From: an uncultured Bacteriovoracaceae bacterium | GTDB lineage: Bacteria > Bdellovibrionota > Bacteriovoracia > Bacteriovoracales > Bacteriovoracaceae | NCBI GenBank assembly: GCA_950054155.1 | Contig: CATLOT010000023.1 | Location: forward strand, 1 to 58,714 | Reading direction: 5' to 3' | DNA length: 58,714 bases | In this document: positions 45,741-51,383 of the stretch, one piece after another | Layout of the letters: each line of letters begins with the position of its first letter | Numbering within the stretch: position 1 is the stretch's first letter | Notes under the pieces: model-generated | Database searches by the model: none | What the model saw: only the letters and a program-made list of their open reading frames with translations | What the model was told of the DNA's origin: nothing | Program-made: the position numbers and the translations under genes

Positions 45741-45959
45741 CTAACTCTCAAGTTCTCCATTCTCGTTATTAATATTCTCAAGAACCTTCTCTAAATCGGC
45801 ATCAGAGAGCTTCTCCTGTGAAGGTACGCGGTAGCTCTCTGTTACCCAATGACCAAGGTCAACTTCTTTACAGCGCTGTCCACAAAAGGGACGGTATTGA
45901 GAATCATAATAATTGAACTGAGATTTACATTTTGGGCAATTTACTTTCAATACTTTCAT
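45741..45959 (-). CDS. yacG: DNA gyrase inhibitor YacG-like zinc protein
   Basis: This 72-residue protein has the YacG zinc site CPKCKSQF and FCGQRCKEVDLGHWVTESYRVP, with C-x2-C and C-x3-C and the typical D-L-G-x-W. YacG binds the GyrB subunit and inhibits DNA gyrase in Escherichia coli. The N-terminus, MKVLKVNCPKC, is standard. The acidic C-terminal tail (DADLEKVLENINNENGE) is longer than in some homologues. The start overlaps the stop of the aminotransferase gene (ATGA), so the two are coupled. Confidence 0.88.
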   Translation of the reverse strand: MKVLKVNCPKCKSQFNYYDSQYRPFCGQRCKEVDLGHWVTESYRVPSQEKLSDADLEKVLENINNENGELES

Positions 45960-46768
45960 AATTGAATAAAGTCCTTGGCTTTTATTTTATTATACGATTC
46001 TAAGAGCTCAGATCTCATGACAGGAGAAAGCTCCAAGTCATCCCATCTTTTAACAGGAATTAGTCCTCTAAGAGAGTTGACCAGAAAAAGAGCATCAAAA
46101 TTTTCCTGTTCATTCCTATGAATTTTACAGGGAGTGATCTTAGACTGAGGTTCTTTTAATAAATGAGTAAGAGCAATACCTTTAAAGAAATCACCTTGAG
46201 GCGTTTTCCACTCTTTCGTCTCACGTTCTCTAAGAATGATATTCGCTATTGTAGAATCCTCGAGATAGCCTTCACTATTATAAAAAAGAACTTCACTCTT
46301 GAGACAATTTTTTAATCTCAAAGATTCAGCATAGTTCCCTATTTTTATATCTTGTGAGAAAGCTCTCAATCTCTCCTCTCTCTCATGAGAATTGAGGAGA
46401 ACAGGTTCATCGTTACTTTTAAACTCGCTAACCTCTATGAGGAGTGAAAGTTTTTTTAAAGAAGAGTCTTTAAAATAAGTCACTCTCAATTTTAAAGATT
46501 CATTTTTCTCATCTTTAAAAAGTTCACTTCGCTGTAGGGATTCTCTAATTTCATTTTCTATTTGCTTTGGTTCTCTTACTTCTTCGAAGAGATAGCCCAA
46601 TCCTCGCTCCAGTCTTTCAATGTGAGCGTTACCAAAGATCAGACGCTGTTTTGAAACCAAAGCAGTTGTAAAAACAGACATTCCCCAAAGGAAGGCACTC
46701 CCCTGTAAAAAGGTGAGAATATCTCTATTTTCCAGTTCTCTAGAATTTAAGAAGAATTCACTCTTCAT
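45956..46768 (-). CDS. Class IV aminotransferase (PabC-like)
   Basis: This 270-residue protein has the fold-type IV PLP-enzyme pattern: GSAFLWGMSVFTTALV near the N-terminus, a basic region FGNAHIERLERGL, the candidate PLP-lysine in DIKIGNYAESLRLKN, and EGYLEDSTIANIIL, which corresponds to the conserved E-x3-(S/T)-N region. It may be aminodeoxychorismate lyase (folate) or a branched-chain aminotransferase-like enzyme. The adjacent divergent pantothenate operon makes a branched-chain link worth noting. Substrate choice cannot be settled from motifs. It is the first gene before yacG. Confidence 0.75.
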   Translation of the reverse strand: MKSEFFLNSRELENRDILTFLQGSAFLWGMSVFTTALVSKQRLIFGNAHIERLERGLGYLFEEVREPKQIENEIRESLQRSELFKDEKNESLKLRVTYFKDSSLKKLSLLIEVSEFKSNDEPVLLNSHEREERLRAFSQDIKIGNYAESLRLKNCLKSEVLFYNSEGYLEDSTIANIILRERETKEWKTPQGDFFKGIALTHLLKEPQSKITPCKIHRNEQENFDALFLVNSLRGLIPVKRWDDLELSPVMRSELLESYNKIKAKDFIQL

Positions 46769-46862
46769 AAGTCTGACACGCCTTTTCGATATTTAACAAC
46801 CTATGCTAAAAGGTCTTTTAGAACGTTGCCACAGCTTATTAGGGTTTGAAAAGGAGCTCCTC

Positions 46863-47801
46863 ATGAATCAAGATCATTGGCAAGAAGTCACATTAATAGG
46901 TCTTGGCAACCAAGGACTTGCGTGGGCCCAAAACCTTAAAGAGAGCTCACTCATTGTTCACTGCTATCTTAGAGAAAATAGCCCTAAACAAGAGCAGGCT
47001 AAAGATTTAAACCTTAATCTGATCTCATGTGTTGAGCAAGCTAAGGGACCCCTCTTACTTCTCATTCCTGATCACCAGATCTTCTCCTTTATTAAAGAGA
47101 ACTCTATCCCTAAAGGAAGCCCACTCATCTATGCACACGGGGCAAGTTTAATTGAAAATGATTTGCAAGAACTCTTTCCTGAATATTCTCACTGTCTCCT
47201 CGCCCCTAAGGCCATTGCTAGTGAACTAAGAGAAGAATACAAAAGAGGAGGAAAGCTAGGCGCCGTCTACAGCGTGGAATATCCCTCGCCAAATGAAGAG
47301 TCTGAGGAGCTTAGAAGAAAGATCTTAAAACTGGCCCAAGACTTAGGTATTACTGCCGGCCCTTATGAAGTCACCTTTAAACAAGAGACAACAGCAGATC
47401 TCTTAAGTGAACAAAGTCTTCTTTGTGGCCTCATTCCCTACGCGGCGAAAGCTTGCTATGACAGACTTCGCCAAGCCGGAATTCCCCAAGAGCTTGCTTA
47501 CTTAGAGGCATGGCATGAAGTTAAACTCATCGGGAACGCAATGAGTCAAAAGGGTCCTGCAGGTCTCTTTGATCTCATAAGTCCCCATGCTTTGGCGGGT
47601 GCCCACAAAGCGTCCCAGATGCTCTTTGACAAAGAGTACCAAGAAACAATAGAAAAGCTGCTTACGGATATAGAAAACGGTCAATTCTTTAAAGAAGCTC
47701 ACACCTTTTTTACTGAAGATGAGAATCAAAGTGTAGAAGACTTTTGGGGCCGTAGTGAGATCAATCAAACCTACCTTGGTATCAAAGACTCACTTACTTA
47801 A
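46863..47801 (+). CDS. Ketol-acid reductoisomerase-like protein heading the pantothenate operon
   Basis: This 312-residue protein has the class I ketol-acid reductoisomerase fold. It shows a nucleotide-binding G13-L-G-N-Q-G18, then D179 and E183 (ADLLSEQSLLCG) and E215 and E219 (YLEAWHEVKLI), the four Mg-binding acids. Two substrate loops differ from IlvC: KGPGH reads K116-A-I-A-S, and the S-x-T-A-E-Y-G loop reads S240-P-H-A-L-A-G. The family's enzymes can also reduce ketopantoate. Because panB, coaX, coaBC and panC follow directly, a ketopantoate reductase role is likely, in place of PanE. AAGGAG precedes the ATG at 46863. Confidence 0.8.
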   Translation: MNQDHWQEVTLIGLGNQGLAWAQNLKESSLIVHCYLRENSPKQEQAKDLNLNLISCVEQAKGPLLLLIPDHQIFSFIKENSIPKGSPLIYAHGASLIENDLQELFPEYSHCLLAPKAIASELREEYKRGGKLGAVYSVEYPSPNEESEELRRKILKLAQDLGITAGPYEVTFKQETTADLLSEQSLLCGLIPYAAKACYDRLRQAGIPQELAYLEAWHEVKLIGNAMSQKGPAGLFDLISPHALAGAHKASQMLFDKEYQETIEKLLTDIENGQFFKEAHTFFTEDENQSVEDFWGRSEINQTYLGIKDSLT

Positions 47802-47826
47802 AACGAAAGTCAACCGTAAGGAAGAG

Positions 47827-48636
47827 ATGATGACGGAAAAACGAAAACTCGACACCAGAAAAATAAGAAAGAGAAAAGTTCATAAAGGTGAAAAACCACT
47901 TTCAATGCTCACCTGCTATGACTTTCAAACAGCTCAACTTATCGACAACCTCGATCTTGACCTTATTCTCGTTGGCGACTCTCTAGGTAATGTTGTACTT
48001 GGTTATGAAACAACTGTTGAAGTCACTCTTAATGATATGATCACTTTCGGTGCCGCAGTCAAAAGAGGAGCGCCACAAACCTTTACAGTTGTAGACCTTC
48101 CCTTTGGAACCTATGCATCAGTTGAGAGTGGCCTAAAAAATGCGATCGAGCTTTTTCAAAAAACAAAAGCAGAAGCCTTAAAGTTAGAAGGCGCAGCCTT
48201 CACAGAACTTATCGAACGCCTCACTGCTGTTGGTATCCCTGTTATGGGTCACCTTGGTCTTACGCCCCAAAGCGTTCACCAACAGGGTGGTTACTATACG
48301 CATGGTAAAACAACATCAGAAGAGGACCAACTCATTAAAGACGCGATCGCTCTGCAAAAAGCAGGCTGTTTTAGCCTCGTCCTTGAGTGTGTCACTCCTG
48401 AGCTCTCTCAAAGAATCAGTGAAATGCTCTCCATTCCTACAATTGGTATTGGAAGTGGCAATAAAACAGATGGCCAAGTTCTTGTGATCAATGATCTTCT
48501 CAAAATGGGGCCTGAGCGTCCTCCCCAATTTTGTAAACCAGTCGCGGACTTCTATGAACTAAAACGCCAGGGCATCGAGCTCTATCTCAAAGATGTTAAT
48601 GGGCAAAGAAATGAGCCTTCACAAGTTTCACAATAG
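47827..48636 (+). CDS. panB: 3-methyl-2-oxobutanoate hydroxymethyltransferase PanB
   Basis: PanB makes ketopantoate from 2-oxoisovalerate and methylene-tetrahydrofolate, the first step of pantothenate synthesis. The 269-residue protein has the phosphoenolpyruvate/ketopantoate barrel signatures LTCYDFQTAQLIDNL, ILVGDSLGNVVLGYETT, VMGHLGLTPQSVHQQGGY with Mg-binding residues, and ECVTPEL with the catalytic Glu. IGIGSGNKTDGQVLV is the usual late box. The start at 47827 follows AAGGAAGAG; the longer frame overlaps the upstream gene. It is part of the operon with the reductoisomerase-like gene, coaX, coaBC and panC. Confidence 0.96.
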   Translation: MMTEKRKLDTRKIRKRKVHKGEKPLSMLTCYDFQTAQLIDNLDLDLILVGDSLGNVVLGYETTVEVTLNDMITFGAAVKRGAPQTFTVVDLPFGTYASVESGLKNAIELFQKTKAEALKLEGAAFTELIERLTAVGIPVMGHLGLTPQSVHQQGGYYTHGKTTSEEDQLIKDAIALQKAGCFSLVLECVTPELSQRISEMLSIPTIGIGSGNKTDGQVLVINDLLKMGPERPPQFCKPVADFYELKRQGIELYLKDVNGQRNEPSQVSQ

Positions 48637-49303
48637 CTTAGAGAAGCTCAACCTCATTACTGTTGACCTTGGCAATAGTCATCCCCACTATGCTCGCTTT
48701 GAAAAAGGCGAGCTCAAGGAAGTTCATCCCTATTCGCAAGAGGCAAAGACCTCGTTTGGTAACCTCCCCGTTAGAATTTGCTCTGTAAGAAAAGATATTC
48801 AAAGTTCATTCTCTTCCCAAATAAGAGAAGGCAAATTCTGTGACATGAACGTTGAATATGAAAAGACCCTTGGTCATGATCGCCTCATCGGAGTCTTCTA
48901 TTTACACCACGCTCTTGAAAGAGAGTTCATGCTCATTGATGCCGGCACCTTCCTGACTGCTGACTTTGGGGGCCCCCGTGGTTTTGAAGGTGGCTATATC
49001 CTACCTGGCCTTCATACTTTTGCTCAAAGCTATAAAAGGGGTGAACAACTTAACCCTCCCCCCTTTGAAGGCCAAAGCTCTACGCTCCCCCACACAACAC
49101 GAGAAGCGATGAGCGGAGGGGTAAACCTCTATCGGCAAGGCCTCATTTCTGAGCTTAAAGAGCTCGCTCAACAAAGATTAATTGTTCTCACCGGAGGCGA
49201 GGCCAAACACCTAGAAACCTCGTTTTCTCAGGCACTTAGAGAGGACCACCTCCTTCATTACGCATTGTATTTTCAACACGTTTATGAAATATTGCGCCTA
49301 TGA
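48611..49303 (+). CDS. coaX: Type III pantothenate kinase CoaX
   Basis: CoaX phosphorylates pantothenate, the first step from vitamin to CoA. The 230-residue protein has the ASKHA-fold motifs LITVDLGNSHPHYARFEKG (phosphate loop), GHDRLIGVFYLHHA, LIDAGTFLTADF and GFEGGYILPGLHTF. The length is slightly short of the usual 250. The start at 48611 was preferred over 48593; both overlap the end of panB, which implies translational coupling. Its stop overlaps the coaBC start (ATGA). Type III kinases are not inhibited by CoA. Confidence 0.9.
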   Translation: MSLHKFHNSLEKLNLITVDLGNSHPHYARFEKGELKEVHPYSQEAKTSFGNLPVRICSVRKDIQSSFSSQIREGKFCDMNVEYEKTLGHDRLIGVFYLHHALEREFMLIDAGTFLTADFGGPRGFEGGYILPGLHTFAQSYKRGEQLNPPPFEGQSSTLPHTTREAMSGGVNLYRQGLISELKELAQQRLIVLTGGEAKHLETSFSQALREDHLLHYALYFQHVYEILRL

Positions 49304-50532
49304 AAATTGCACTAGGTGTCACCGGCTCCATAAGCGCCTACAAAGCGCTTGATCTGTGCCGTGAACTTACAAAATTAGGTCACAAAGTAAGGGTGATTCT
49401 CACCCGAGGCTCCCTTGAATTCATCCAGCCCAAAGTCTTTACCTACCTTGGTGCTGAAAAGGTATACGACCCAAGTGATGACTTTAGTGAGTTAAGCTCT
49501 CATGATCAGGACCTTCAAGGCAGCGTCCTTCATGTATCACTCGCTAAGTGGGCTGATCAATTTGTCATCGCTCCCTTGAGCGCGAACACTTTAAGTCATC
49601 TGACTGCTGGAGCTGCTCCCGATCTTTTAACCTCACTCTTTCTGGCCTGGCATCAAGACAAGCCCCTAAGTATTTTTCCAGCGATGAACACTCATATGCT
49701 GACTCATCCTTTCGTCAAAGAAAACTTAGAGAAATTCAGTGGCTTTAAGAACTGTTTCGTTGGCCCCACTCAATCGGGCTTACTCGCTTGTGCCGATGTG
49801 GGAGACGGAAAACTTGCCAAGGTCGAAGAAATTCTCAAACTTATTGAGACACGCACTCTAAAAACAAGTAAGAAGACTACGCTCATCACTGCTGGTGCGA
49901 CAGTCGCTCCCCTTGATAATGTCCGCTACCTTACTAATGCGGCCAGTGGTAAGACCAGTATCCCCTTTATTGAAAAGTCTTTATCTCAGGGAGACTACGT
50001 CATTTGTATCGCGGGTATCTACGCAACGAAAGAGCTTGAGCTCTTTAAGCACCATCCTCATTTTAAGATCCAGCGTGTACGCACAACTCGAGAAATGCAA
50101 AAAGCCGTTCTCGAAGCCTTTCCACTATCTGACCTCTATATCTCTACAGCTGCCATTGGTGACTTTGAATTTGTGGCGCAAGAAAAGAAACTTAAGAAAA
50201 GTGACCTCTCTGACTCTTTAAAAATTGAGAGCAGCCCTGATATTCTAAGAAGTGTTCTCGACATCAAAAAACCTCATCAAAAGGTCATCGGTTTTGCAGC
50301 TGAAAGTGACCTCTGTGACGAAGTCCTTCTCACAAAATTTAAGCGTAAACCAGTGGACCTTCTGATTGGTACTCAGGTTCACTCAGGTCTTACTGGGGAA
50401 AACCAAGCTCAAGGTTTTGCCGAAAGCTTTGCGACCTATCGCTTTGTTGATCATCTTGGCAAACTTGGAAAAATCGAATCTATGACAAAAGAAGAAATGG
50501 TCACGAAGGCCATGACTTGTTTTAACTCCTAA
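49300..50532 (+). CDS. coaBC: Bifunctional phosphopantothenoylcysteine synthetase/decarboxylase CoaBC
   Basis: CoaBC joins cysteine to phosphopantothenate and decarboxylates the product to phosphopantetheine. The N-terminal flavoprotein decarboxylase half has GVTGSISAYKALDLCREL, IAPLSANTLSHLTAGAAPDL, FPAMNTHMLTHP and GLLACADVGDGKLA with the active-site Cys. The C-terminal synthetase half has ITAGATVAPLDNVRYLTNAASG and KVIGFAAES. The 410-residue length is typical. The N-R-S-S-G box reads N-A-A-S-G, a mild deviation. It overlaps coaX by four bases and precedes panC. Confidence 0.95.
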   Translation: MKIALGVTGSISAYKALDLCRELTKLGHKVRVILTRGSLEFIQPKVFTYLGAEKVYDPSDDFSELSSHDQDLQGSVLHVSLAKWADQFVIAPLSANTLSHLTAGAAPDLLTSLFLAWHQDKPLSIFPAMNTHMLTHPFVKENLEKFSGFKNCFVGPTQSGLLACADVGDGKLAKVEEILKLIETRTLKTSKKTTLITAGATVAPLDNVRYLTNAASGKTSIPFIEKSLSQGDYVICIAGIYATKELELFKHHPHFKIQRVRTTREMQKAVLEAFPLSDLYISTAAIGDFEFVAQEKKLKKSDLSDSLKIESSPDILRSVLDIKKPHQKVIGFAAESDLCDEVLLTKFKRKPVDLLIGTQVHSGLTGENQAQGFAESFATYRFVDHLGKLGKIESMTKEEMVTKAMTCFNS

Positions 50533-50543
50533 GGGAAATCAGA

Positions 50544-51383
50544 ATGAAACTCGTTACCACTCGCAGTGAACTTTCAAAAATCCAAGAAACCGGTCTCAAA
50601 AACAATACCATTGGTCTTGTGCCGACGATGGGTAATCTTCACCAAGGTCACCTTGAGCTTGTCAAAAGATCCCTTCAGAGAACACAAAAAACAATGGTCA
50701 CCATTTTTGTTAACCCCAAGCAATTTGGACCAAATGAAGACTTTGAAAAGTACCCTCGAACCCTTGAGGCTGATCTTTTAAAACTTAAGGAACTTGATGG
50801 CGCTGACAATATTGTCGTCTTTGCTCCTCAATCGACTCTAGAGATTTATCCTGAAGGCTTTAACACAACCATTGAGGTTCAGGGGCTTGATAATCTTCTT
50901 TGTGGTGCAAATAGACCTGGGCACTTTAAAGGGGTGACAACTGTCGTTTATCAACTCTTCAAATTGAGTGGTGCAGACATGGCCTTCTTCGGTCAGAAAG
51001 ACTTTCAGCAATTTAAAATTATTGAAAAAATGGTCCATGACCTCTCTCTTGAGATTGAACTTGAGATGTGCCCTATCATTAGGGAGCCCTCAGGCTTAGC
51101 TCTAAGCAGTCGCAATCAATATCTTTCTTCCAGTGAAAGAGAAGAGGCCCGTCTTATCAAAGAGACCCTTGATCACTTGAAGGAACTTTTTCTTGAGAAC
51201 AGAGAGAAGGCCCTGAAGAAGCGCGAGGATATTCTCTTTCATGAACCCAGATGGCAGTACCTTGAAGTCCTCGATGGAAGTCATTTAACTGAGGTTTCTG
51301 CTAAGACAAATCAAGTTGTGGTTGCAGGGGCTTTCTTGATGGGAGATACTCGTCTTATTGATAATATTCTTTTTGATCTCTAA
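50544..51383 (+). CDS. panC: Pantoate-beta-alanine ligase PanC
   Basis: PanC joins pantoate and beta-alanine with ATP to give pantothenate. The 279-residue protein has the nucleotidyltransferase motif LVPTMGNLHQGHLELV, NPKQFGPNEDFEKYPR, the pantoate-binding FFGQKDFQQFKIIEKMV and PIIREPSGLALSSRNQYLS with the KMSKS-like loop. All are standard. It is the last gene of the operon. The source of beta-alanine (PanD) is not in this window. AAGGGAAATCAG precedes the start. Confidence 0.96.
   Translation: MKLVTTRSELSKIQETGLKNNTIGLVPTMGNLHQGHLELVKRSLQRTQKTMVTIFVNPKQFGPNEDFEKYPRTLEADLLKLKELDGADNIVVFAPQSTLEIYPEGFNTTIEVQGLDNLLCGANRPGHFKGVTTVVYQLFKLSGADMAFFGQKDFQQFKIIEKMVHDLSLEIELEMCPIIREPSGLALSSRNQYLSSSEREEARLIKETLDHLKELFLENREKALKKREDILFHEPRWQYLEVLDGSHLTEVSAKTNQVVVAGAFLMGDTRLIDNILFDL

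Follow-up and report, generated by a model that had tools for sequence, protein, structure and literature searches.

Which enzyme reduces ketopantoate to pantoate in a bacterium whose pantothenate (vitamin B5) operon begins with a relative of ketol-acid reductoisomerase (KARI, IlvC)? In other bacteria this reduction, the sole step between PanB and PanC, is carried out by PanE or PanG, which are separate families of proteins. We addressed this question for a locus in the window, that is, the whole 58,714-nt stretch of DNA analysed here, which constitutes contig 23 of the genome of an uncultured Bacteriovoracaceae bacterium (G000; 3.52 Mb, 99.9% complete) and in which the KARI-like gene is the only candidate found for this step. 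We consider it highly likely that its product is a ketopantoate reductase derived from the KARI (IlvC) fold.

Organization of the operon and pathway content of the genome

The operon consists of the KARI-like gene, panB, coaX, coaBC and panC, in this order, densely spaced and all on the + strand (46863-51383). The first gene (46863..47801, +) encodes a 312-aa KARI-fold protein, the putative dedicated ketopantoate reductase, with matches to KARI_N (3e-16) and KARI_C (3.5e-26) that both lie above the Pfam cut-offs. Its ATG at 46863 is preceded by AAGGAG; a longer frame opens at 46803, but this start is probably not used because no AAGGAG-type site lies just upstream. The second gene, panB (47827..48636, start near 47827, +), encodes the ketopantoate hydroxymethyltransferase that makes ketopantoate (Pantoate_transf PF02548, 8.1e-94; TIGR00222, 286 bits vs a cut-off of 207.55), and it overlaps coaX (48593..49303, with a start at 48593, 48599 or 48611, +), which encodes a type III pantothenate kinase (Pan_kinase PF03309, 4.8e-15). 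A 4-nt overlap (ATGA) connects coaX to coaBC (49300..50532, +), encoding a phosphopantothenoylcysteine decarboxylase/phosphopantothenate--cysteine ligase (Pfam Flavoprotein and DFP; TIGR00521, 270.9 bits vs a cut-off of 219.7), and a gap of 11 nt separates the latter from panC (50544..51383, +), the gene for the pantoate--beta-alanine ligase that uses pantoate (Pantoate_ligase, 3e-90; TIGR00018, 277.8 bits vs a cut-off of 212.75). These Pfam and equivalog matches, together with the coordinates, bear out the gene order and the overlaps or short gaps described in the sequence-only reading.

The divergent neighbor of the KARI-like gene encodes a class IV aminotransferase (45956..46768, -; PF01063, 9e-23) that reached no equivalog cut-off; such a gene is found beside KARI in 46 of the 80 loci of relatives described below. 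This enzyme could supply ketoisovalerate from valine, or it could be PabC-like.

Profile searches of G000 found neither a panE elsewhere in the genome nor a second, canonical ilvC, in line with the earlier placement of the KARI-like gene in the position of panE. Specifically, the PF01450 search retrieved the window gene alone, whereas the profiles for PanE (PF02558) and IlvD (PF00920), each of which was detected in 14/14 control genomes, had no match, and the PanG-type DUF2520 profile (PF10728) likewise found nothing. Without IlvD, the product of KARI cannot be converted to valine or isoleucine by the established pathway; given that no IlvD was found in G000, the window protein therefore has no role in branched-chain amino acid synthesis by a known pathway.

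A KARI fold with a conserved catalytic site and altered loops

The window protein has the class I KARI fold. An AlphaFold prediction made with 35 relatives yielded a complete fold at high confidence (mean pLDDT 95.6, pTM 0.91), and in the Foldseek search against the PDB, all 50 matches listed were ketol-acid reductoisomerases, under that or the older name, with the top KARI matches reaching TM-scores to the query of 0.76-0.89. The alignment confirmed the four metal-binding acids named in the sequence-only reading, including their numbering (D179, E183, E215 and E219), and showed that the remainder of the active site (H92, K116 and S240) is present as well and that the glycines of the nucleotide-binding domain are retained, as in class I KARI. 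Each of the seven catalytic residues is kept by 25 or 26 of the 26 family members compared.

The same alignment shows the two loop changes that had been noted, namely, KGPGH to KAIAS and S-x-T-A-E-Y-G to SPHALAG. These loops presumably contact the substrate, as would be expected from KARI structures in general. The changes are, for the most part, features of the family: Ile replaces the Pro of KGPGH in 25/26 members and Leu replaces the Glu of TAEYG in 23/26, and the H of SPHALAG is a variant of the window genus, the family norm being SPNALxG. In each of ten panB-linked KARIs that are more distant, Ile or Val takes the place of the Pro, and none keeps the Glu.

Despite its fold, the window protein scored below every IlvC equivalog cut-off tested (TIGR00465, 158.4 vs 226.15; NF004017, 150.7 vs 336), whereas the canonical KARI of another genome in the set, G014, passes both (389.2 and 488.8, respectively). 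In Pfam searches, the protein lacks the ApbA domain (PF02558) and the DUF2520 domain (PF10728), and thus belongs to neither the PanE/ApbA nor the PanG family; no helix-turn-helix domain was found in it either.

Distribution of the KARI-panB arrangement

A profile scan of named bacterial and archaeal genomes yielded 111 relatives, of which 80 were kept, those with informative titles being mostly Bacteriovorax, Halobacteriovorax and other Bdellovibrionota. In 77 of these 80 named loci, KARI lies directly 5' of panB on the same strand, a recurrence which argues that the arrangement is not due to chance; the median distance from the KARI stop to the panB start is -4 nt (70 loci measured), and panB is followed by coaX and, in most loci, by coaBC and panC.

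We then surveyed the phylum, using HMM searches for KARI, DUF2520, panB and IlvD in 293 genomes, each at least 85% complete. KARI was detected in 116, DUF2520 in 134, panB in 256 and IlvD in 4 genomes; ilvD was not found in the other 289, and 114 of the 116 KARI genomes lack it. The two putative reductases are distributed in a nearly mutually exclusive manner among the 256 genomes with panB (114 with KARI only, 133 with DUF2520 only, 1 with both and 8 with neither), and the 37 genomes without panB contain KARI once and DUF2520 never. Within the window's own family, 94 genomes have panB (84 with KARI only, 9 with DUF2520 only, 1 with both, none with neither), and the six without panB have neither reductase. 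In other family members, including G023, G028 and G035, the slot before panB is filled by a DUF2520/PanG-type protein, and one genus, g44, includes some species with KARI and others with DUF2520.

The eight panB-containing genomes in which neither profile had a match include one, G236, with a divergent PanG-like protein. Neither KARI nor DUF2520 was detected in G276, G286, G287 and G279 (loci L209, L210, L211 and L212, in that order); the product of the gene preceding panB in L209 carries an HD domain (one copy tested), and its counterparts in L210, L211 and L212 look alike.

Phylogeny of KARI and PanB

The family tree proposed in the sequence-only reading separates the panB-linked KARIs from canonical IlvC. 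In the maximum-likelihood tree, 36 sequences of the panB-linked type, a set that includes two family members not themselves adjacent to panB (L020 and L022), form one side of a branch with support of 100/99, and the canonical KARIs, including the ilv-operon copies of G014 and G090, form another side (100/97). Some branches are long and the bootstrap is not fully settled, so the deeper order in this tree is uncertain.

In the PanB tree, KARI-type and PanG-type operons correspond to separate PanB lineages. The gene order differs as well, KARI-panB-coaX-coaBC-panC in one type versus panG-panB-panC-coaBC or coaC in the other. Because of these two differences, the alternation between KARI and DUF2520 is largely a choice between two whole operons rather than hundreds of single-gene swaps. 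Accordingly, we rejected counting 248 genomes as independent replacements, given that the PanB tree resolves two operon lineages and these genomes are far from independent; Fisher p-values computed for the co-occurrence counts are likewise not to be taken at face value. At least one genome, G057, looks like a single-gene change of the reductase, combining a KARI-type PanB with a DUF2520 protein encoded elsewhere in the genome and no KARI found. Separately, G012 carries a second panB (L078:1429-2283) outside the pan operon, which branches at a great distance from the copy inside the operon in the PanB tree. By appearance only, one of its two neighbors is regulator-like and the other lyase-like.

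Genomes with canonical IlvC and divergent KARI relatives

Two genomes serve as internal controls. G090, the single genome with both KARI and DUF2520, encodes a canonical KARI in an ilvD-ilvB-ilvN-ilvC cluster, and its pan operon starts with panG (DUF2520); G014 has, besides its panB-linked KARI, a separate canonical copy within an ilvBN-C-E-leu operon that lies near ilvD. True IlvC, where present, is therefore a different protein. In G020, a panB-linked KARI coexists with an unlinked PanE-family protein that scores above its cut-off. Most ApbA matches in relatives were generic Rossmann proteins that scored close to the cut-off, and we did not accept them as PanE; the only matches resembling genuine members of the PanE family are those of G020 and G023.

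Several KARI relatives depart from the common form. In G045 (L038:7290-8408) and G052 (L034:112-1242), KARI is fused to an N-terminal MerR-type helix-turn-helix domain, and in G045 the fusion gene heads a panB-coaX-coaBC-panC operon; the domain composition makes an enzyme-regulator fusion possible. Second KARI-like proteins, unlinked to pan genes, are encoded in G025 (L033:7330-8334) and G096 (L208:2098-3105), next to genes for a cytidylyltransferase and a 2-hydroxyacid dehydrogenase, with an SDR gene also present in G096. In these two proteins, the active-site Lys is replaced and the metal site is altered in part (K to R, E to A), and they probably have another new function. Unlinked KARI homologues with changed metal ligands (D to N, E to G or K) were also observed at L041, L042, L195 and L196 (families f4 and f13), in genomes with panB and without IlvD. 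Given such homologues with a broken metal site, the co-occurrence of KARI with panB does not prove one mechanism for all.

Proposed mechanism and alternative explanations

The genes present, the operon, the fold, the catalytic residues, the clade and the co-occurrence across genomes are observed directly; from these we infer the substrate, the cofactor, the role of the altered loops and the loss of isomerization. The KARI-like gene at the head of the operon would encode an NAD(P)H- and Mg2+-dependent 2-dehydropantoate (ketopantoate) 2-reductase descended from class I KARI. Ketopantoate produced by PanB, a 2-keto acid, would be bound by the KARI-fold protein through the metal site and active-site residues that it retains, and hydride transfer from the nicotinamide cofactor would reduce C2 to yield (R)-pantoate; PanC would couple pantoate to beta-alanine, with CoaX and CoaBC carrying on towards coenzyme A. 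Canonical KARI catalyzes a Mg2+-dependent alkyl shift followed by NAD(P)H-dependent reduction of a 2-keto acid (PMC5940873), and ketopantoate would require only the second half of this reaction. The retained metal ligands, Lys, His and Ser fit metal-assisted reduction of a 2-keto acid, and the replaced loops fit a different substrate side chain. No new chemistry would be needed, because ketopantoate reduction is already performed, as a side or second activity, by IlvC of E. coli, Salmonella, Buchnera, C. glutamicum and B. subtilis (PMC4306246, PMC11487621), as the sequence-only reading had noted. Acetolactate isomerization was probably abandoned, since with no IlvD there is no known pathway that would use its product. 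That the window protein is fully dedicated and has lost the isomerase activity is less certain than the reduction itself, because only two losses speak for it, that of the pathway and that of the loop motifs.

The protein might instead be an ordinary bifunctional IlvC that resides in a pan operon by chance and for which ketopantoate reduction is a side activity, as it is for IlvC of C. glutamicum or Buchnera. The retention of all metal ligands and of the catalytic K, H and S would be expected of such an enzyme, and IlvC does stand in for PanE in several bacteria; an isomeroreductase, however, would be useless without ilvD, which is missing here and nearly throughout the phylum, and the alterations of both loops are conserved, the panB-linked KARIs form a separate clade, and the window protein falls short of the TIGR00465 cut-off that the canonical copy of G014 clears. 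We regard this explanation as improbable. It is also quite improbable that the protein reduces another pathway-linked 2-keto acid, for example, ketoisovalerate to 2-hydroxyisovalerate, and that ketopantoate is actually reduced by a protein that has escaped recognition. The reductase activity of KARI does accept many 2-keto acids (PMC5940873), and neofunctionalized KARIs such as BurG exist (PMC9359912), but more than 100 genomes would then have an operon complete except for its reductase, and this scenario would not account for why KARI and PanG alternate in the position preceding panB.

A decaying paralogue or a non-enzymatic regulatory protein is barely conceivable: the MerR-type DNA-binding domain of the G045 and G052 proteins, which belong to another family, makes a regulatory role possible there, but the window protein has no such domain by Pfam, its catalytic residues are invariant or almost so across deep divergence, the frames are intact throughout the family, and the predicted fold is complete. 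Thus, a dedicated ketopantoate reductase evolved from the IlvC fold, as originally suggested for this gene, is supported by the lack of panE, a second ilvC and ilvD, by the alternation with PanG and by the separate clade. Points that count against it are the split into two operon lineages, the eight panB genomes in which the HMMs detect neither family, the additional PanE-family protein of G020 and the unlinked homologues with a broken metal site. With less confidence, although we still favor it, we propose that these proteins comprise an old, phylum-spanning KARI subfamily that lost acetolactate isomerization and represents a ketopantoate reductase family of its own beside PanE and PanG, including the MerR-type fusions, which could regulate the pan operon in response to pathway metabolites.

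Implications and relationship to known enzymes

In Bacteriovorax-like bacteria without branched-chain amino acid synthesis, an IlvC relative has very probably become the dedicated enzyme of a vitamin B5 step. This assignment would fill an apparent gap in pantothenate synthesis for a large group, Bacteriovorax and its relatives, many of which are predators, and would correct the annotation 'ketol-acid reductoisomerase', which wrongly implies branched-chain amino acid synthesis where it is missing. The case resembles a natural experiment in enzyme evolution, in which the side activity of a bifunctional isomeroreductase would have become the main one after the original pathway was lost, with the metal site retained and the loops rebuilt. 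Neither the reaction nor the fold is new; what we describe is apparently an old, widespread and specialised KARI subfamily, and our search of the openly licensed literature turned up no account of a KARI clade dedicated to ketopantoate reduction.

Compared with class I IlvC (EC 1.1.1.86), the window protein shares the fold, the nucleotide-binding glycines, the metal ligands and the catalytic K/H/S, but has KAIAS in place of KGPGH and PHALAG in place of TAEYG, scores below the IlvC cut-offs, and is encoded in a pan operon of a genome without IlvD. The IlvC enzymes that substitute for PanE in C. glutamicum, Buchnera, B. subtilis, E. coli and Salmonella have the same KARI fold and catalyze the reaction proposed here, but they remain branched-chain enzymes with ketopantoate as a second substrate, whereas the branched-chain role of the window protein is gone. 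PanE/ApbA (EC 1.1.1.169) has the same proposed reaction and pathway position but belongs to a different family (PF02558), absent from G000. PanG (DUF2520, PF10728), also of a different family, occupies the same slot before panB in related genomes; Miller et al. 2013 reported its activity, as cited in PMC4207893 and PMC4572677, the latter of which ties PanG-type ketopantoate reductases to DUF2520 proteins. BurG (PMC9359912), finally, likewise represents a KARI clade of its own that has acquired a new function and still uses two Mg2+ ions, but it makes a cyclopropanol and is located in a polyketide cluster.
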